DNA of 64,000 bases, taken from positions 1 through 64,000 of the forward strand of contig CALIBP010000147.1 in assembly GCA_938048165.1 (NCBI GenBank), written 5' to 3'. Position 1 is the stretch's first letter; each line of letters starts with the position of its first letter. Shown piece after piece: positions 22,584 through 58,730 of the stretch. A program made the position numbers and the translations under genes. This DNA is from an uncultured Alphaproteobacteria bacterium (GTDB lineage: Bacteria; Pseudomonadota; Alphaproteobacteria; MPNO01; UBA2964). Under the pieces are notes generated by a model that was given only the letters and a program-made list of their open reading frames with translations, made no database searches and was not told the origin of the DNA.

Positions 22584-23786
22584 ATGTCTGACGAAAACGC
22601 CCCCACCGAAGAAATTGATATCAGCAAAAAGTTTCTTGTCGATCCTTATATGGATTGGGCGAAGGGCGAAGGCATTCCCATGCATCTCGATTTTGGCCAC
22701 AACCTGCTAGCCTTGGAAACAGATGTTTGGGATCGCTGGGACGCACGCGGCTGTTTCGCGCATACGCACGGCAATGGCGACTTCATGGCCAACTATGTCC
22801 TGGAAGTCGCACCGAGCAAGAAGACAGCACCGATCAAACATATATACGAAGCGTTTTTCTATGCCCTCTCCGGTTATGGCTCAACGACGGTCACTTACCC
22901 CGATGGCGAGGTCCGGACTTTCGAATGGGGTCCCAAATCACTTTTCACAGTGCCGTTGAACTGCGAATACCAAATCTTCAATGGCTCTGGTCAGGAGCCA
23001 GCACGCCTGTCCTGCACCAATGATGCGCCGCTGGTCATCAACCTGTTTCACAATGAACGCTTCGTCTTTGAAAACGATTTCGATTTTCCTGAACGGATTG
23101 GCGACAGCAAGCATTTTGATGGCGAAGGCGATCACTTGACGGTTAATCGTGGCGACAACGTCGCCGAAGCCAATTTGTGGGAAACCAACTTCGTCAATGA
23201 TCTGACAAACTTTAAGCTCTATGCGATGGATTCACGCGGAAAAGGGTCACTCAACGTTTCCTTTATTCTCGCGGACAGCACCATGCATGCCCATTCGTCT
23301 GAAATCCCGATGGGCCGTTACAAGAAAGCCCACCGTCATGCTGCCGGTACGCACGTCCACGCCGTCAGCGGCACTGGCTACACCCTTCTTTGGTACGAAG
23401 GGGATCAGGAATTCAAGGAATTTCCGTGGGAACATGGCTTTATGTACACACCGCCGTTCTGGATGTTCCATCAGCACTTCAACACCTGCGATCAACCGGC
23501 CCGATATCTGGCCTGTAGTATGGGCAGCCGCCGCTATCCGTTTATTGCATTACGCCGCAAAAGCGCGGAGGGCAAAGGTGCAACATCCATTCAGGAAGGT
23601 GGTCGGCAGGTTGAATATGAAGATCAGGATCCCCGTATCCATCGCAAATGGCTGGAAGCAATCGCCGAGAATGGTGTGAGCTCAAATATGGGGGATGTCT
23701 TCGACGAACCGGCTATTATGGCTTTGCCTCAGTCAGAGCTGGAAGGCCCAATCAAGACACCACAATCAATTGGCCCCGCCGTTTAA
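22584..23786 (+). CDS. Bicupin protein with intact second-cupin histidines
   Basis: A 400-residue two-cupin protein. Cupin 1 (about 85-160) has KHIYEAFFYALSGYGSTT and a GPKSLFTVPLN turn. Cupin 2 (about 235-310) carries H250, H252, H257 and H259 (HRHAAGTHVHAV), then H296 and H298 (MFHQHF), a plausible Fe or Mn site. The general design recalls gentisate-dioxygenase-type bicupins, though identity is not strong enough to assign a reaction. It follows tctB by 60 bases with GAGGACCCGT before the ATG. A paralogue at 28345 has lost the cupin-2 histidines. Confidence 0.75.
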   Translation: MSDENAPTEEIDISKKFLVDPYMDWAKGEGIPMHLDFGHNLLALETDVWDRWDARGCFAHTHGNGDFMANYVLEVAPSKKTAPIKHIYEAFFYALSGYGSTTVTYPDGEVRTFEWGPKSLFTVPLNCEYQIFNGSGQEPARLSCTNDAPLVINLFHNERFVFENDFDFPERIGDSKHFDGEGDHLTVNRGDNVAEANLWETNFVNDLTNFKLYAMDSRGKGSLNVSFILADSTMHAHSSEIPMGRYKKAHRHAAGTHVHAVSGTGYTLLWYEGDQEFKEFPWEHGFMYTPPFWMFHQHFNTCDQPARYLACSMGSRRYPFIALRRKSAEGKGATSIQEGGRQVEYEDQDPRIHRKWLEAIAENGVSSNMGDVFDEPAIMALPQSELEGPIKTPQSIGPAV

Positions 23787-26010: not shown

Positions 26011-27384
26011 ATGCTCGATTTGATGAATATTGCCCGCACTGAAGCCGATGGCGGGGACCTGTTTGGCTTGCTCAACGATTTGTATGAGCCCACCGATGTC
26101 CGGCCAACGGGCTTTCCTGATGCCGTCGTATGGCAAGGAGGCAATCATGATGGCAATGTCGAGCCTGTTGCCCATTCCATGACGGATGCGTTTGCATTGA
26201 TTGGAACCATGGCCGCGATCGATGTGCTAGGGCTGCCCTTTTACGCGGTGCCAATGTGGTCGCAATACCGGCATGACCACAATCTTGAACCTTTGACATG
26301 GTTCGGCAACATGCCATGCATCTCAATCAAATGGTCGACGGCTGGCGATGCTTACGTGAATGATGGCAAAGGCGGCAAGGTCGTTGTGATGGGTAAATCC
26401 GGTAATGCCCCGTTGCGGACCCAGGCAGGCGTTTATTGTAACGTTCGTCCTTACGGACCAATCACTGCCGTCCGCTGCATGCCCTGCCTGCCCTATTCGC
26501 AGGATAAGAGCGTCTTTGGCGTAAACGCTGAAACCGGTCATATCCATTCAGAAATGAATACCCCCGGCGTACAGCTTGCCTATGCCAATCGCCTGTTCCT
26601 GAAAATGGTCCATGAAACCGGACATCTTGGCCGTGTTGCAACAAAGCCGACGCAGGCCCAGGAAGACGGCATTAATGCCGGTCTCCACAGCTGGCTCCTT
26701 CAAGGCACCAAGTTTGAAGTCGGACGGAAATATGCCGTCGATCCTTACGATGAGTTCAAGGAAGAAATCGACAAGATCATCGCCCTCCTCCCGGCTGATT
26801 TTAAAGATGGCATGGAGAACTGGGGAGGCCGTATCGAACAGCACATTTCCGACACAAACTATGGGCTGCTGGTGTGGGATCTAATTGAACAGCGTGATTG
26901 CATCGTGCTGGCGACGGACTTGGATGGCGACCGCCTCACCGACCTCATGGCCGATATTTCTGATCCTCTGCGTGCCTTTGGTGGTATGGTCGCCAAACAT
27001 CTCGGGCAGGATGTCGATATGCGCAAAATTTGGTCCGACATGGGTTACACCACGGGTAATGGTCGTGACATGACGTCGGTCATGCACCGTATGACGGGTC
27101 CCGCCATTCATGAGCAAACGCTGGGTTCAGCGGATGCTATGCTCCTTCGCCTATTGGATGGTGACGAATGGGTTGGCGGCACCAAACAGCCTTATGATCC
27201 GCGTATTCATTTTGTTTTGATCCGCGATGCCTATCTCGATGCCAATAAGGGCAACAAAGAACTCGCAGCATTCCTTGACGATGCGCTAGCGAAGTTCGAT
27301 GAGATCTATTACAGCGGTGACCGCCCGGGCTTTCTGCAAGGCTATGCCTCACTGAAAGAAGCCATCACACCCTGGGGCGCGTAA
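26011..27384 (+). CDS. Unrecognised 457-residue protein with HETGH
   Basis: I cannot assign a family. The protein is soluble-looking, without signal peptide or membrane segments. The first half has several His, Cys and Asp clusters: WQGGNHDGN (41-49), YRHDH (86-90), CMPC (156-159) and H177/H179. HETGH at 201-205 fits the HExxH zinc-peptidase pattern, but the flanks do not match a peptidase family I know. The second half is acidic with DLDGDRLTDL. Start: ATG at 26011 with AAGAGGCACCC just upstream. It is not EutB, despite similar length and the nearby eutA. It converges with the dihydrodiol-dehydrogenase-like gene ten bases away. Confidence 0.6.
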   Translation: MLDLMNIARTEADGGDLFGLLNDLYEPTDVRPTGFPDAVVWQGGNHDGNVEPVAHSMTDAFALIGTMAAIDVLGLPFYAVPMWSQYRHDHNLEPLTWFGNMPCISIKWSTAGDAYVNDGKGGKVVVMGKSGNAPLRTQAGVYCNVRPYGPITAVRCMPCLPYSQDKSVFGVNAETGHIHSEMNTPGVQLAYANRLFLKMVHETGHLGRVATKPTQAQEDGINAGLHSWLLQGTKFEVGRKYAVDPYDEFKEEIDKIIALLPADFKDGMENWGGRIEQHISDTNYGLLVWDLIEQRDCIVLATDLDGDRLTDLMADISDPLRAFGGMVAKHLGQDVDMRKIWSDMGYTTGNGRDMTSVMHRMTGPAIHEQTLGSADAMLLRLLDGDEWVGGTKQPYDPRIHFVLIRDAYLDANKGNKELAAFLDDALAKFDEIYYSGDRPGFLQGYASLKEAITPWGA

Positions 27385-27394
27385 GCTCAAATTA

Positions 27395-28180
27395 TTAGCG
27401 TTGGGACGCGACGGAAACGCCGCGTCCCGCATCGCTATTTATCACCGAGCCGGTCATAACGGCAGATTGATCGGACGCCAGCAGCACATAGGACGCTGCG
27501 TGATCTTCCGGCTCCGTCTGACGTTTCAGAATATTACTGTTTGGACCACCTGTACGCGCTGGTGTCCTGTCTGCTCCCGGCTCCAACAGGCTCTCTGCAT
27601 CAGCAAAGGATGTCGGCGTCCCGCTCGGCGCGACGCCATTGACGCGAACGTCGGGAGCCAGCTCATGGGCTAATGCCCTCATCAGACCAAGGGCTGCATG
27701 TTTCGAGGCGGTATAAATTGGCCCACTGCCAATATAAAAAGACGAGGTCGACAGGGTCAGAACAATACAGCCTTTGTTTTTAATGAGTTCCTCACGGGCA
27801 GCGGCGGCGCCTATCAAATATCCTTTCACATTGACCCCGAAGACATCATCGAACCCCTGATTCAGCTCCTTCTCACCCATATCTTCGAGGCGCTTGCGGC
27901 CATCGCGAACGCCTGCATTACCAACAAATACGTCAAGCCTGCAAAATCTGGATACCGCCAGCTCAACGGCCTTCTGATTATCTTCAAGATTCCTGACATC
28001 GCCGCACACTGTCACCAGACGATCTTCGTGAGCAGCCTGCAACGCTGCTAGCCGTTCTTCAACCAGGTCAAATGCCACGATACCGGCAGCGCCTTCTTCC
28101 AGAAAACGCTTAACAACGACCTTGCCGATGCCTTCGCCAGCACCGGTAATAAACACAACCTTATTCTCAAGCCATCGCAT
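27395..28180 (-). CDS. SDR oxidoreductase, BphB-like dihydrodiol dehydrogenase
   Basis: A 261-residue classical short-chain dehydrogenase. NAD site TGAGEGIG (12-19); NAG motif at 88-90; active site S144 region, Y156 and K160 (YTASK). Several stretches follow the biphenyl dihydrodiol dehydrogenase BphB pattern: VGNAGVRD, DDVFGVNVKGY, GPIYTASKHA and TGSVINSDAG. Likely reaction: NAD-dependent oxidation of a cis-dihydrodiol to a catechol, the step after a Rieske dioxygenase. Start: ATG at 28180 with GGGAG eight bases upstream; GTG at 28195 is rejected. A Rieske oxygenase lies 3 kb away on the other strand. Confidence 0.83.
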   Translation of the reverse strand: MRWLENKVVFITGAGEGIGKVVVKRFLEEGAAGIVAFDLVEERLAALQAAHEDRLVTVCGDVRNLEDNQKAVELAVSRFCRLDVFVGNAGVRDGRKRLEDMGEKELNQGFDDVFGVNVKGYLIGAAAAREELIKNKGCIVLTLSTSSFYIGSGPIYTASKHAALGLMRALAHELAPDVRVNGVAPSGTPTSFADAESLLEPGADRTPARTGGPNSNILKRQTEPEDHAASYVLLASDQSAVMTGSVINSDAGRGVSVASQR

Positions 28181-28344
28181 TTCGGTAACTCCCACGCTTC
28201 CTCGGTTTAATAGCTAGTATGCGCTGCAAAACGGCCGAGAGGAACACCGGTATCAATGATGCCTGTTGCTTGACAGTCGCGCCGCCTTTGACCATGTTCG
28301 ACAGCAAGAAATTCGGTAGTTTTATCACTATTTGAGAGCCCTTT

Positions 28345-29571
28345 ATGCCCCATGATGTTGCGGGTGATCCGCACTGGCACGAACCCGGTCGCGACCTGTA
28401 TGCCGGCACCCCTTCCTGGCCTCGACTGGCAACGCCCTATGACGATTTTATGGAAGCGCAAGACATCCCCGTGGTGCGGGAGATCGGTATAGCCAACGTT
28501 CTAAACCTGCCGTTGCGCCCTTGGGAACGTATGGGAGGGCGTGGCTGTTTTATTCAGCTCTTCGGAACCGAAGGAAAATGGGGCAGTTATCTGGTTGAGG
28601 TTCCCGGCGCTGGTGCCCTCAATGAAGAGCGGCATCTATACGAAGAAGTTTATCTGGTTCTCGAAGGACGTGGCACCACCGAGATTTGGGATGATGGCCA
28701 GGAACGACCGGAAATTTTCGAATGGAGTCGCGGATCGCTTTTTGCCATCCCGATGAATACCAATCATCGCATTGTCAATTCGTCCGCCAATCCGGCTGTT
28801 TTACTGGCGGGCACTACCGCACCCAATATGCTCAACCTGATGCATGATGAAGACGTTATCTTTGGGTCTTCGCTGCAGATGAAAAAGCGCTACGACCCAA
28901 CTGGCAGCAACTTCGAGCCTTCGGACGGGTTACAGCCCGATCCGGCCCGTGGCCTGGCGATGTGCCGTACAAATGTCGTGGCTGACGTATTCTCAACAGA
29001 GCTCTATCTCGATAACCGCCGAACCCCCGGTTACCGTCGAATGGAACCACAAATGGCGGAAAACGTCTTCTACCAGTATATCGGAGAGCATCCCGCCGGG
29101 CGCTACTCGCGGGCCTATTCTCCAGGATCAGCCGCTGCATTTATATGCATCGGCGGCAAAGGGTATTCCTATACCTGGCCGCAGGAGCTCGGCCCCACCC
29201 CCTGGCAGGATGGCCAGGGCGATAGCGTACTGCGTCAAGAATATGGCGAAGTCAGCATGATTTCCGCAGCACCAATGGAAGGCGACTGGTTTCACCAACA
29301 TTTCTCAACCAGCGAAAAACCACTTCGGCTACTCGGGTGGTACGGCCCCAATAATCACATCGCCCAACAGGCAGGGGTTCCAGGCGACACTGTCGTCGAT
29401 CCCGGCATGGTCGATATCACCTATGCCGGTGGGGCTTCCGTTCCCTACTCTCTCGAAGACCCGCAAGTCCGAGCCAATTTTGCCGAAGCCGTCGCGGCCG
29501 AGGGGGCAGAGAACCGGATGGAAGACAAATTCTATGACAAGAACACGACATACTCCTTTGCTGGTGGCTAA
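28345..29571 (+). CDS. Bicupin paralogue lacking second-cupin metal histidines
   Basis: A 408-residue paralogue of the bicupin at 22584. Cupin 1 aligns well (RHLYEEVYLVLEGRGTTEIW, then RGSLFAIPMNTNH). In cupin 2 the first metal motif is replaced: the stretch aligned with HRHAAGTHVHAV reads YSPGSAAAFICI (258-269), with no His. The second motif keeps H317 and H319 (WFHQHFSTSEKP). It probably does not use the same metal site in cupin 2, so a structural, regulatory or heteromeric role is possible. It is 32 bases upstream of eutA on the same strand and likely co-transcribed with it and the Rieske gene. Confidence 0.75.
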   Translation: MPHDVAGDPHWHEPGRDLYAGTPSWPRLATPYDDFMEAQDIPVVREIGIANVLNLPLRPWERMGGRGCFIQLFGTEGKWGSYLVEVPGAGALNEERHLYEEVYLVLEGRGTTEIWDDGQERPEIFEWSRGSLFAIPMNTNHRIVNSSANPAVLLAGTTAPNMLNLMHDEDVIFGSSLQMKKRYDPTGSNFEPSDGLQPDPARGLAMCRTNVVADVFSTELYLDNRRTPGYRRMEPQMAENVFYQYIGEHPAGRYSRAYSPGSAAAFICIGGKGYSYTWPQELGPTPWQDGQGDSVLRQEYGEVSMISAAPMEGDWFHQHFSTSEKPLRLLGWYGPNNHIAQQAGVPGDTVVDPGMVDITYAGGASVPYSLEDPQVRANFAEAVAAEGAENRMEDKFYDKNTTYSFAGG

Positions 29572-29603: not shown

Positions 29604-31106
29604 GTGTATGACGAGGAAGAAGAAGGCGGCCGCGTTATTTTTGCCGAGCAGCGCAATATCGCCGCTGCCGAAAAGACCTCACTCGTCAGTGTCGGGGTCG
29701 ATATCGGCTCTTCGACATCACATCTGGTATTTTCACGGTTGCGGATGGAACAGCGGGATGGTCGCTATGTCGTCGCCGAACGCCAGGTCATTTACGACTC
29801 TGATATCTTTCTGACACCTTATACCGATCAACAGACAATCGATTCAGACAGGCTCGGCGACTACATAGCCGGTCAGTATCGGTCGGCTCAGCTTCGACCG
29901 GATGAGGTCGATACGGGAGCGCTCATTCTCACTGGTCTCGCCGTGCGGCGGCAGAATGCACGGGCGATCGGAGAATTGTTCGCCGTCGAAACCGGCAAAT
30001 TCGTTTCTGTCTCCGCCGGCGATCAAATGGAAGCGGCGATGGCCGCCTACGGCTCTGGTGCCGTTGTGAATTCCAAAGATGTCGGTGTTGTCGTTATGAA
30101 TGTCGATATCGGTGGCGGCACGACAAAGATCGCGATTTGCGACAAAGGCGAAATCGTTGGGCTAACTGCCGTTGATATTGGCGCCCGACTTATCGCCTTC
30201 GACGAAGGCGGCACGGTTACGCGGTTAGAGGAAGGTGGGCTATTTTTCGCCAAAGAGGCAGGACTCAATCTTGCCCTGGGCGATACCATCACGACTGAAA
30301 ATTGCGAAGCCATTGCAGAACGGATGGCTGACCGGCTGGAAGAAATTATTGCGCTACGCGTTCCTTCTGCCAAAACAGAAGCGCTGCATCGTCTTGCGCC
30401 GATCAGCTGGCGTGGCGAGATCGATGCCCTTACCTTTTCCGGCGGTGTATCTGAATTCATCTATGAGTATGAAGAGAATGAATTTGGTGACCTCGGCCCC
30501 TATCTCGGCCGTGCAATTTATCAGCGGGTGGAAAATGCCGGCTATCGGGTTATGCCCCCGGTTGAGAATATCAGGGCCACTGTCGTTGGTGCCTCCCAAT
30601 ATACAATACAGCTCTCGGGTACGACGATCATGGTCTCAGACGAGGCCCTCCTCCCGCTGCGCAATATTCCGGTTATCAAACCCGGGTTTTCCTTTGACCA
30701 GCAAGACATTGACCAGAATGATATCGCAAACGCCATCGCGAATGCTCTACGGCGACTGGACCAGTCTGATGCCGGGCAACCTGTCGCCTTGTGTTTCGAC
30801 TGGCTGGGATCTGCAAGCTACCAACGCATCGATGCTTTTCTTTGCGGAGTGGCTGCAGGCCTTCGCAAACACATCGAAAAGGGTCATCCACTGGTCATGG
30901 TCTGCGAAGGGGACATCGGGAAAGTCTTTGGTATTCACGCAGAGGAAGAAATCGAACTCGGCGTTCCAATTGTTTCCATCGATGGCATTGCCCTTGAAGA
31001 ATTCGATTATATCGATATCGGCGGCATGATGATCGCATCAGGTGCCGTTCCTGTTGTTATTAAATCGTTGCTGTTTCCGGGCAGTACGTCCTTGGGACGA
31101 AGCTGA
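29604..31106 (+). CDS. eutA: EutA-like ethanolamine ammonia-lyase reactivating factor
   Basis: A 500-residue protein of the EutA family, actin/Hsp70-fold ATPases that exchange damaged cobalamin out of ethanolamine ammonia-lyase. Family segments: SVGVDIGSSTSHLVFSRL at the N-terminus, ALILTGLAVRRQNAR, MNVDIGGGTTKIAI (phosphate loop), LTFSGGVSEFIYEYE, RATVVGASQYTIQLSG, LPLRNIPVIKP, and a final YIDIGGMMIASGAVPVVIKS. Order and length match E. coli EutA. No eutB, eutC or microcompartment gene is in the window. GTG start at 29604 gives a short acidic leader (MYDEEEEGG); no strong ribosome-binding site is visible. It follows the second bicupin by 32 bases. Confidence 0.88.
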   Translation: MYDEEEEGGRVIFAEQRNIAAAEKTSLVSVGVDIGSSTSHLVFSRLRMEQRDGRYVVAERQVIYDSDIFLTPYTDQQTIDSDRLGDYIAGQYRSAQLRPDEVDTGALILTGLAVRRQNARAIGELFAVETGKFVSVSAGDQMEAAMAAYGSGAVVNSKDVGVVVMNVDIGGGTTKIAICDKGEIVGLTAVDIGARLIAFDEGGTVTRLEEGGLFFAKEAGLNLALGDTITTENCEAIAERMADRLEEIIALRVPSAKTEALHRLAPISWRGEIDALTFSGGVSEFIYEYEENEFGDLGPYLGRAIYQRVENAGYRVMPPVENIRATVVGASQYTIQLSGTTIMVSDEALLPLRNIPVIKPGFSFDQQDIDQNDIANAIANALRRLDQSDAGQPVALCFDWLGSASYQRIDAFLCGVAAGLRKHIEKGHPLVMVCEGDIGKVFGIHAEEEIELGVPIVSIDGIALEEFDYIDIGGMMIASGAVPVVIKSLLFPGSTSLGRS

Positions 31107-31165: not shown

Positions 31166-32218
31166 ATGACCGATACCCCCCAGTTAAGAAACCGCTGGTA
31201 TGTTGCAGGCCTCTCTGAAGAGGTCACAGACAAACCTGTCGCGTCGCGAATGCTTGACGAACCGCTCGTCCTGTTCCGTACCCCCTCAACTGGTGAAGTC
31301 TCGGTCCTTGAAGACCGTTGCGTTCATCGTCAGGCCCCTTTGTCACTTGGCGAGATCGTCGGCGATAACCTGCAATGCGGTTATCACGGTATTGAATATG
31401 ATTGCAGCGGCACCTGCGTCCGAATTCCGAGCCAAAAACAGATACCGCCGGGTGCAGCCATCCGCTCCTATCCCTGTATCGAACAGCAGGGCTTTATCCA
31501 TGTCTGGATGGGAGACCCGGCTCTCAGTTCCACCGTAGAACCCTATGATTTTCCATTCGCGTCTAACCCCGACTGGCGTGTCCGCTACGCCCATCTCTAT
31601 GGCCGGTTCGATAACCGCCTGCTGATCGACAACCTCATGGATGTCACGCACCTACCCTTTGCCCATAAATCCACCATCGGTGCCTCCGGTGTTGCCGAAC
31701 AGGCGGTCGCGAAAACCGAGCGCCTTGGAGACCGGGTTCGGATCACGCGGTTTATGGAGAATATAGCTCCCGCCCCGGCCCATGTGGCGGTGACTGGTTA
31801 TTCCGATAATGTTGATCGCTGGCAGGTGATCGAATACGCCCCGCCTGGCTTTGTCTGGCTGCAAGTTGGCTCCTCAAAAGCCGGTACGGGTGGGCGTGAG
31901 GCTGATCCGGAAAATATGCTCCTGGACCGTCATACGCTTCATCTCGCCATGCCGGAGACGGACAACACCACCCTCTATCTCTGGGTAATGGCGAACAAAG
32001 CCGACGGGTTAACAAGCGAACAGGAAGACGCGATTTACGATGCCTCGGTTCTCGCCTTCAACGAAGATATCGTGATCATCGAAGCTCAGCAGGATCGTTG
32101 GAATACAGAAATTCCGAAAATCGACGTTAGCGCTGATGCCGGTGCTCTCGAAGTCCGCCGCCTCGTCGACCGGCTGATCGCAGAAGAATCCGCCGTTCGC
32201 AATCTGAAATCTGCATAA
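31166..32218 (+). CDS. Rieske oxygenase alpha subunit, VanA-like
   Basis: A 350-residue Rieske non-haem iron oxygenase. The [2Fe-2S] ligands are C52, H54 (CVHRQAPL), C71 and H74 (CGYHG). The mononuclear iron motif is D159, H162, H167 (NLMDVTHLPFAH). Length and C-terminus fit the vanillate O-demethylase/phenylpropionate group, so O- or N-demethylation or ring hydroxylation is possible. A ferredoxin-type reductase is required but none is encoded nearby. It lies 59 bases after eutA and ends before a strong terminator. Confidence 0.87.
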   Translation: MTDTPQLRNRWYVAGLSEEVTDKPVASRMLDEPLVLFRTPSTGEVSVLEDRCVHRQAPLSLGEIVGDNLQCGYHGIEYDCSGTCVRIPSQKQIPPGAAIRSYPCIEQQGFIHVWMGDPALSSTVEPYDFPFASNPDWRVRYAHLYGRFDNRLLIDNLMDVTHLPFAHKSTIGASGVAEQAVAKTERLGDRVRITRFMENIAPAPAHVAVTGYSDNVDRWQVIEYAPPGFVWLQVGSSKAGTGGREADPENMLLDRHTLHLAMPETDNTTLYLWVMANKADGLTSEQEDAIYDASVLAFNEDIVIIEAQQDRWNTEIPKIDVSADAGALEVRRLVDRLIAEESAVRNLKSA

Positions 32219-56873: not shown

Positions 56874-58730
56874 ATGCGTTATTCGATTGCGACCGTCTCC
56901 ATCTCCGGCACGCTCAGCAACAAGATCGAAGCGATTGCTGCGGCAGGCTTTACCGGCATCGAAATCTTTGAAAATGATTTGATTTCCCATGTCGGCAGCC
57001 TCAAGGATTTGCGCCAGAAGATGACTGATCTTGGGCTGACGCTTGAGGTCTATCAGCCATTTCGTGATTTCGAAGGCATGCCAGAGCCATTTCGCAGCCG
57101 CAATTTTGATCGCGCCGAACGCAAATTCGATCTGATGGAAGAGCTTGGCACCGATCTGCTGATGATCTGCAGTAATGTTTCACCGCACGCGCTGGGCGGC
57201 ATCGGACGGGCGGCAGATGATCTCCATGAACTTGGTGACCGCGCCGCCAAAAGAAATATGCGTATCGCGTTCGAAGCCCTGGGCTGGGGCCGTCACGTCA
57301 ATGACTATCGTGATTCCTGGGAAATCGTGCGACGCGCCAACCACCCTTCCGTGGGGCTTACCCTCGATACGTTTCATATCTATTCACGTGGCACCGAAAT
57401 AGACTCAATGCTCAACATTCCCGGGGACCGAATATTTCTGGTGCAGGTTGCGGACGCCCCCAAACTGTCAATGGATCCGCTTTCCTGGAGCCGCCACCAT
57501 CGCTGCTTCCCCGGTCAGGGTGAACTCGATCTCGCCAGCTTTATGGAGAATATTCGGGCCACCGGATATGACGGGCCGCTATCACTGGAAATTTTTAATG
57601 ACCAGTTCCGGTCCAGTGATCATTTCCGCCACGCCCGCGATGCCTACCGTTCGCTGATCTATCTGGCAGGGGAAACCGAGGAAAACGAGTCCGCCCCAAG
57701 CCAGCCGCTCAAGGACATTCCGCAACCGACCGAGGTTGAGTTTATCGAGTTCGCCGTCGATGGCGATGAACACACAGCCCTCTCCGCCTTTCTGACCCAG
57801 GCCGGCTTCACCCACGCCGCGACGCATAAGAAGAAGCAGGTCGAGCTATGGCGCCAGGGGGCCATCAACCTCGTCATCAATCGCGAGCCGGAAAGTTTTG
57901 CGCAACGCTACCATGGCGATCATGGCCTCTCTGTCTGTGCCTATGGCCTCACCTGTCCCGACCCAAAAGCGCTCGTTGAACGCGCTACGAGCCTCGGATA
58001 CGAGATGGTTCACGCCAATCCGGAACATGATACGCACGGGATCGCGGCGGTTACCGGGCCAACAGGTGCCCTGCTCTATCTCGTTGATGCCAATGATACG
58101 CCATCGCATTGGGAGCGTGAATTTATTCATCATCCGATTAACCAGGATGCCATGCTGAAACGGGTCGATCACGTCGCAACGACGATGCCCTTTGACGCGG
58201 TACTGGAAGCAACATTGCTTTATCGCTCTGTCTTCCAGATGACGTCATCGCCCTCCGTTACCATCGCCGATCCTCTGGGCATTGTGAAAAGCCAGGTGAT
58301 GGAAGTCGCTGATCGGGGCATCGCCATGACACTCAACAGCACGCTGGCTGGCGGCACGGTCGTCGCGCAAAGCCAGAACCGCTATCAGGGGTCAGGCGTC
58401 AACCACATCGCGATGGAAACCTCCGACATTTTCGCCCTGGCCGAGCATCTTAAAATACAGGGCGCCGAGCTGATGGATGTGACGCCGCATTACTATGACG
58501 ACCTCGCCGCACGGTTCAGCCTGAGTGAAGACGCCATCGACCGGATGAAGTCCTGCCATATCCTTTATGACGAAGATGACGACGGGATATTTTATCAGCT
58601 TTACACCAAGCTGTTTAACGGCCGGTTCTGTTTCGAATTCGTCCAGCGGCAAGGGTATCGCGGTTATGGCATGGCCAATGCGCAAATCCGCCTGACCATG
58701 CAGGCCCGCGAGCTTGACCTATTGCGGTAA
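56874..58730 (+). CDS. QuiC1-type 3-dehydroshikimate dehydratase (isomerase + HPPD-like fusion)
   Basis: A 618-residue two-domain protein. The N-terminal half (about 1-280) is an AP-endonuclease-2/sugar-isomerase TIM barrel, starting RYSIATVSISGTLSNKIEA with GLTLDTFHI and LSLEIFND. The C-terminal half (about 290-618) is a VOC/4-hydroxyphenylpyruvate-dioxygenase-like unit with HVATTMPFD and NHIAMETSD. This fusion is the QuiC1 family, whose N-domain dehydrates 3-dehydroshikimate to protocatechuate; the C-domain role is less certain. It links quinate or shikimate use to aromatic catabolism. Confidence 0.88.
   Translation: MRYSIATVSISGTLSNKIEAIAAAGFTGIEIFENDLISHVGSLKDLRQKMTDLGLTLEVYQPFRDFEGMPEPFRSRNFDRAERKFDLMEELGTDLLMICSNVSPHALGGIGRAADDLHELGDRAAKRNMRIAFEALGWGRHVNDYRDSWEIVRRANHPSVGLTLDTFHIYSRGTEIDSMLNIPGDRIFLVQVADAPKLSMDPLSWSRHHRCFPGQGELDLASFMENIRATGYDGPLSLEIFNDQFRSSDHFRHARDAYRSLIYLAGETEENESAPSQPLKDIPQPTEVEFIEFAVDGDEHTALSAFLTQAGFTHAATHKKKQVELWRQGAINLVINREPESFAQRYHGDHGLSVCAYGLTCPDPKALVERATSLGYEMVHANPEHDTHGIAAVTGPTGALLYLVDANDTPSHWEREFIHHPINQDAMLKRVDHVATTMPFDAVLEATLLYRSVFQMTSSPSVTIADPLGIVKSQVMEVADRGIAMTLNSTLAGGTVVAQSQNRYQGSGVNHIAMETSDIFALAEHLKIQGAELMDVTPHYYDDLAARFSLSEDAIDRMKSCHILYDEDDDGIFYQLYTKLFNGRFCFEFVQRQGYRGYGMANAQIRLTMQARELDLLR

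Follow-up and report, generated by a model that had tools for sequence, protein, structure and literature searches.

A bicupin-linked EutA-like ATPase, set apart from ethanolamine ammonia-lyase, in an uncultured alphaproteobacterium

The gene at 29604–31106 of the 64,000-nucleotide stretch of DNA analysed here (the window) encodes an ATPase of the ASKHA fold that belongs to a separate branch within the EutA family and stands away from ethanolamine ammonia-lyase. Its partnership with the bicupin encoded immediately upstream is well supported by comparative sequence analysis, and the protein is probably an ATP-driven helper of an enzyme other than the lyase. The role that we consider most likely, giving it about an even chance of being correct, is the reactivation or assembly of the metal centre of that bicupin.

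RESULTS

Gene context in the window

The relevant genes of the window are listed below; neighbour families were assigned with phmmer and Pfam on open reading frame (ORF) calls made for this analysis.

22584–23786, plus strand: second bicupin, 400 aa, of the short-bicupin clade, with no EutA gene adjacent
26011–27384, plus strand: 457-residue protein that matches no Pfam or NCBIfam family and is conserved only within the genus
27395–28195, minus strand: short-chain dehydrogenase (SDR), a divergent neighbour (NF004849, 276 bits against a cut-off of 330)
28345–29571, plus strand: bicupin, 408 aa, the conserved partner (Cupin_2; structure model; next to EutA at all 10 clade-A loci)
29604–31106, plus strand: EutA-family ASKHA ATPase of the bicupin-linked EutA-like branch (PF06277, 405 bits; tree; signature residues S36 and K175)
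31166–32218, plus strand: Rieske oxygenase of the VanA_C type, downstream of the EutA-like gene (PF00355, PF19112)

The preliminary description had placed a full-length EutA between a bicupin and a Rieske oxygenase, and the coordinates agree: the bicupin gene ends at 29571, the EutA-like gene (GTG start, 500 aa) occupies 29604–31106 and the Rieske oxygenase gene starts at 31166, leaving gaps of 32 bp and 59 bp. It had also reported no eutB, eutC or shell genes in the 64 kb. This too holds, as a six-frame search of the window with EutA, EutB, EutC, EutL and EutM of C. difficile, two further BMC proteins and haloarchaeal EutB and EutC matched the EutA-like gene alone. The SDR resembles aromatic cis-dihydrodiol dehydrogenases best among the NCBIfam families, at a score below the cut-off, and the gene for the 457-residue protein is conserved upstream of SDR–bicupin–EutA in the genus. 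Elsewhere in the window, positions 56874–58730 encode a 618-aa protein in which a xylose-isomerase-like TIM barrel is joined to HPPD-like glyoxalase domains.

Membership of the EutA family

The Pfam EutA profile (PF06277) matched residues 26–491 of the window protein over profile positions 2–474 of 475, with a score of 405 bits (E = 5.8e-121) that is well above the curated cut-off of 27 bits. Against the NCBIfam EutA equivalogs the protein fell below every cut-off, the best score being 354.5 bits against 598. Scores so far under the equivalog cut-offs place the protein in the EutA family, outside the curated equivalogs.

The predicted fold (model pLDDT 81, pTM 0.69) is that of an ASKHA protein, with matches to the exopolyphosphatase-like structure 3cer (Z 18.1), FtsA, MreB and others; by sequence, the EutA-like proteins gave weak MreB/GppA-like matches only among solved structures. 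Residues D33, G35, D168, GGGT at 170–173 and SGG at 279–281, from the phosphate and adenosine motifs, are invariant. The predicted ATP-binding motifs are retained in this branch, apart from a set of signature residues that was defined by comparing 55 EutA-like with eight lyase-linked proteins, the very divergent L095 protein being left out of the eight. S36 in ‘DxGSS’ is present in 55/55 EutA-like proteins and is threonine in 8/8 lyase-linked ones. K175, in the ‘DIGGGTxK’ of the phosphate motif, is likewise found in all 55 and is asparagine in all eight. A148 and S331 each occur in 54 of the 55, with glycine at both positions in all eight. The L095 protein has serine at the first of these positions (S36, K175, A148, S331).

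Several EutA-like clades carry His/Asp-rich N-terminal tails (e.g. GDVFFHEHGPDADHDHD) that are absent from lyase-linked EutA. Clade A, to which the window protein belongs, has an acidic N-terminal tail without histidine; clade D and the rhizobial clade R also lack the His-rich tail, and the UbiD-linked clade has it.

In a tree of 68 sequences, the 59 EutA-like proteins split from nine lyase-linked EutA proteins with support of 98/96, so that the window protein groups apart from EutA of the usual partnership. The lyase-linked sequences came from haloarchaeal and C. difficile plasmids, from four sources outside the class and from one alphaproteobacterium; this side of the tree contains some long branches and its inner order is unsure. 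The sampled carriers of EutA-like genes are all Pseudomonadota, mostly uncultured alphaproteobacteria together with rhizobial plasmids. A strong EutA-family match was found in 11 of 385 alphaproteobacterial genomes (drawn samples, the window's genome counted in). Genomes hold three or four EutA-like paralogues, each of which tracks its own bicupin clade. The label ‘orphan’ that had been given to the gene is mistaken, since the gene has several paralogues and belongs to a coherent family that has a partner of its own.

Absence of ethanolamine ammonia-lyase

A search for EutB in the window's own genome (2.9 Mb in 307 contigs, 68% complete) found none. EutB was also missing in 19 of the 20 order-level carriers of EutA-like genes searched. 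The exception, G010, is from the same family as the window genome and has EutB on a contig without any EutA found. Six carriers from other families, among them G403 (100% complete, single contig), likewise gave no EutB. G002 (99% complete, single contig) has four EutA-family genes, and G003, G007, G011, G138 and G403 have two to four each, with no EutB in any of these genomes. All nine lyase-linked EutA genes examined adjoin EutB.

Since near-complete relatives lack EutB, the window gene is not the orphan of an unseen lyase, and the searches for EutB in its own genome and in those relatives led us to reject hidden eutBC genes. As to eutBC lying elsewhere in the genome, EutB is absent from the window's own assembly, at its 68% completeness, and from G002 and G403. 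The suggestion that the protein serves a distant lyase is contradicted by these absences and by its failure to branch with lyase-linked EutA.

Diol dehydratase was rejected as a client because no large subunit (PF02286) was found in near-complete carriers; one short fragment was seen, in G329. No cobalamin riboswitch was found in ten loci or in the window. At L095 5950–9655, in an alphaproteobacterium, a EutB–EutC fusion (740 aa) directly follows the very divergent EutA (229 bits); the fusion is possibly a lyase that acts on a different substrate.

Pairing with a bicupin or with UbiD

Among the 59 EutA-like sequences, 44 are encoded next to a bicupin, 10 next to the decarboxylase UbiD, a prenyl-FMN (flavin) enzyme, and five next to neither. 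The bicupin gene comes first in 33 cases and the EutA gene in nine, and the two are divergent or convergent in L066, in L068 and for the second bicupin of L073. Gaps from bicupin to EutA are mostly 0–80 bp and only 2–3 bp in clade D, a short spacing that suggests co-transcription. For the partnerless genes, L076 starts at a contig end and the window-type bicupin of its genome is cut by another contig end, the genomes of L065 and L071 hold unlinked bicupins of the matching clade, and the lack of an adjoining partner in L055 and L107 is unexplained.

The bicupin tree mirrors the EutA clades. Over the 15 pairs whose divergence exceeds 35%, the distance matrices correlate (Mantel r 0.79, permutation p 5e-5), and nearest neighbours agree between EutA and bicupin in 36 of 40 cases. 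This co-variation is not only a matter of shared genome ancestry, because clades A, C and D coexist in single genomes with their own bicupin clades. When 72,556 plasmid records were searched with the bicupin, only four matched, all rhizobial and exactly those carrying EutA-like genes; each of the four has two bicupin and two EutA-like genes. WP_262291220 and WP_262291219 form one such pair in Phyllobacterium.

The ten clade-A loci indicate which neighbour is the constant one. The bicupin adjoins EutA in all ten, the gene for the 457-residue protein is near in seven, and Rieske oxygenase and SDR genes are each present in five; the more distant members L053, L056 and L109 keep the bicupin alone. 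The preliminary description had proposed recruitment to another enzyme, perhaps the bicupin, the Rieske system or the 457-residue protein. Recruitment is supported, and these counts favour the bicupin; the 457-residue protein and the Rieske oxygenase, conserved among close relatives only, were dropped as main client. Adjacency and co-phylogeny show a functional link, which membership of one pathway would produce equally well. A search of the open-licence literature found no paper linking EutA with a cupin or UbiD.

A conserved cluster of UbiD, EutA-like, NicO and small cupin genes is present at L042 4340–8560 and in L047, L050, L058, L074, L100 and L105, and could be an unrecognised decarboxylase system. 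In G004, the UbiD-linked EutA, bicupin and Rieske genes are each split into two ORFs (L103 4908–6430, L102), reflecting either sequencing error or decay.

Nature of the bicupin

The model of the window bicupin (pLDDT 83) is closest to salicylate and gentisate 1,2-dioxygenases (2phd, Z 20.1; 3bu7, Z 19.7), with an rmsd of 3.3 and ∼12% identity to these structures, followed by the Mn-binding protein MncA and oxalate decarboxylase (Z ∼18). By sequence, it has no NCBIfam match and does not reach a family-level score for gentisate or salicylate dioxygenases, and its only match to a solved structure is a weak one to auxin-binding protein. Bicupins of relatives give weak family matches to 5-aminosalicylate and gentisate dioxygenases.

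Residues E100, E126, H317, Q318 and H319 are invariant in the bicupins. In the window clade the H-x-H of the second cupin is lost (Y258, P260) and H97 and H141 are kept, so that a three-histidine site is not found; in clade D the H-x-H is kept and H141 is missing. The predicted fold, together with the Rieske, SDR and TTT-transporter neighbours, suggests that the bicupin is a catabolic oxygenase or decarboxylase acting on organic acids, which may be aromatic. A decarboxylase role considered for one protein cluster was dropped, as Pfam gives only NMT1/THI5-like for it.

Nickel and cobalt transporters near EutA-like genes

Ni/Co transporter genes neighbour EutA-like genes in three distinct settings, one of which also includes NikR. 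A NicO gene follows EutA in the UbiD–EutA loci, and no other NicO exceeds the cut-off in G002, G003, G007 or G010. In G403, from another family, the only NicO is ∼3.3 kb from a bicupin–EutA pair. In Phyllobacterium, a strong NiCoT and NikR come right after cupin–EutA. After the second bicupin–EutA pair of the rhizobial plasmids (L121 11796–16328, L122 7284–10241), Phyllobacterium (L121) has genes for LysR and a metal transporter of the TerC family. The window's own genome, which is incomplete, yielded no Ni/Co transporter. NicO can also import cobalt, feeding B12. The metal of the bicupin is possibly nickel or cobalt, judging from these neighbours, and a nickel-dependent cupin dioxygenase, QueD, is on record (PMC4416304).

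DISCUSSION

A possible mechanism and its rivals

According to PMC5821096 (Mori et al. 2004 cited there), EutA uses ATP to remove damaged cofactor from its lyase. By analogy, the EutA-like protein would bind an inactive form of the bicupin and use ATP to open its active site, and an unusable metal or inhibited state would then be exchanged for a working one, whether as reactivation or as assembly of the metal centre. We infer the bicupin binding, ATP hydrolysis, exchange step and identity of the metal from this parallel, as we do the idea of a EutA ‘repairing’ a bicupin. One sub-branch pairs with UbiD, which indicates that the ATPase can be re-aimed. We advance only tentatively, as doubtful, the broader proposal that a EutA-based reactivase or metal-insertion machine serves cupin oxygenases (possibly Ni/Co-dependent) and, in one branch, UbiD.

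The chief rival gives the EutA-like ATPase a catalytic role of its own, for instance as an ATP-dependent kinase or activating subunit, in one catabolic pathway with the bicupin or UbiD, which would act before or after it, and no reactivation would take place. The ASKHA fold is common to phosphatases, kinases and enzyme activators, the surroundings are catabolic (Rieske oxygenase, SDR, TTT transporters, class II aldolase), K175 replaces the lyase-linked asparagine of the phosphate motif in 55/55 proteins, and the partner may be either UbiD or a bicupin. However, the full-length EutA architecture is retained, and three to four paralogues per genome, each tracking its own bicupin clade, resemble recognition of clients more closely than a catalytic step in common. 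We regard a pathway catalyst as somewhat unlikely.

A dedicated Ni/Co metallochaperone, in which a His/Asp-rich tail would collect metal and the ATPase insert it into apo-bicupin as first assembly rather than repair, is in our view rather unlikely. It would account for the NicO or NiCoT and NikR genes, the TerC-family transporter in L121 and the His-rich tails, and the existence of QueD lends it a precedent. Against it, the His-rich tail is lacking in clades A, D and R, the last of which contains the best NiCoT/NikR example (L083); NicO also supplies cobalt to B12; and the UbiD clade has both tail and transporter, yet its partner uses flavin. A pure metal-insertion role thus does not explain the UbiD-paired clade.

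It is very improbable that the EutA-like protein still handles a corrinoid for another adenosylcobalamin enzyme, with the bicupin link incidental. Although the whole EutA fold is retained and a Ni/Co transporter could supply cobalt, near-complete carriers lack EutB and the diol-dehydratase large subunit (the G329 fragment apart), riboswitches are absent from the ten loci and the window, and the bicupin pairing holds across clades. That the gene encodes an ordinary EutA, with eutBC in the missing third of its 68%-complete genome, is barely credible despite the EutB of G010 in the same family, being already contradicted by six carriers with the same genes and no EutB (G002, G003, G007, G011, G138, G403) and by the separate branch.

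Meaning and comparison with known systems

To our knowledge, the sole role described for EutA is to reactivate a single B12 enzyme, and we know of no general need of cupin oxygenases for an ATP-dependent helper. A lyase-free, bicupin-locked branch points to such a helper, hitherto unsuspected, and, if this is true, reactivases of the EutA fold would not be confined to B12 enzymes. Genome annotation names all EutA-like proteins after EutA, and this name is wrong for the lyase-free, bicupin-locked carriers. The reactivase reading is directly testable in Sinorhizobium and Phyllobacterium, which are cultured and have plasmids with two pairs.

Salicylate and gentisate 1,2-dioxygenases are bicupin ring-cleaving enzymes and their fold is nearest to that predicted for the partner. 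Unlike them, the partner bicupin has clade-variable metal ligands, shows ∼12% identity in the structural alignments and lies far below the family cut-offs; we know of no EutA-like partner for these dioxygenases. The diol and glycerol dehydratase reactivases, likened here by mechanism alone, would share the ATP-dependent exchange of a damaged cofactor, but they have two subunits and a B12-enzyme client (PF02286) that is absent here. EutA of ethanolamine ammonia-lyase (PF06277) is the closest counterpart, with full-length homology, the same phosphate and adenosine motifs and a gene beside a cofactor-dependent enzyme. The EutA-like proteins differ from it in having no lyase in the genome, a branch of their own with about 30–34% identity to lyase EutA, and S36 and K175 in place of threonine and asparagine. 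In addition, their N-terminal tail is longer, one genome holds several of them, and they are partnered by a bicupin or UbiD.
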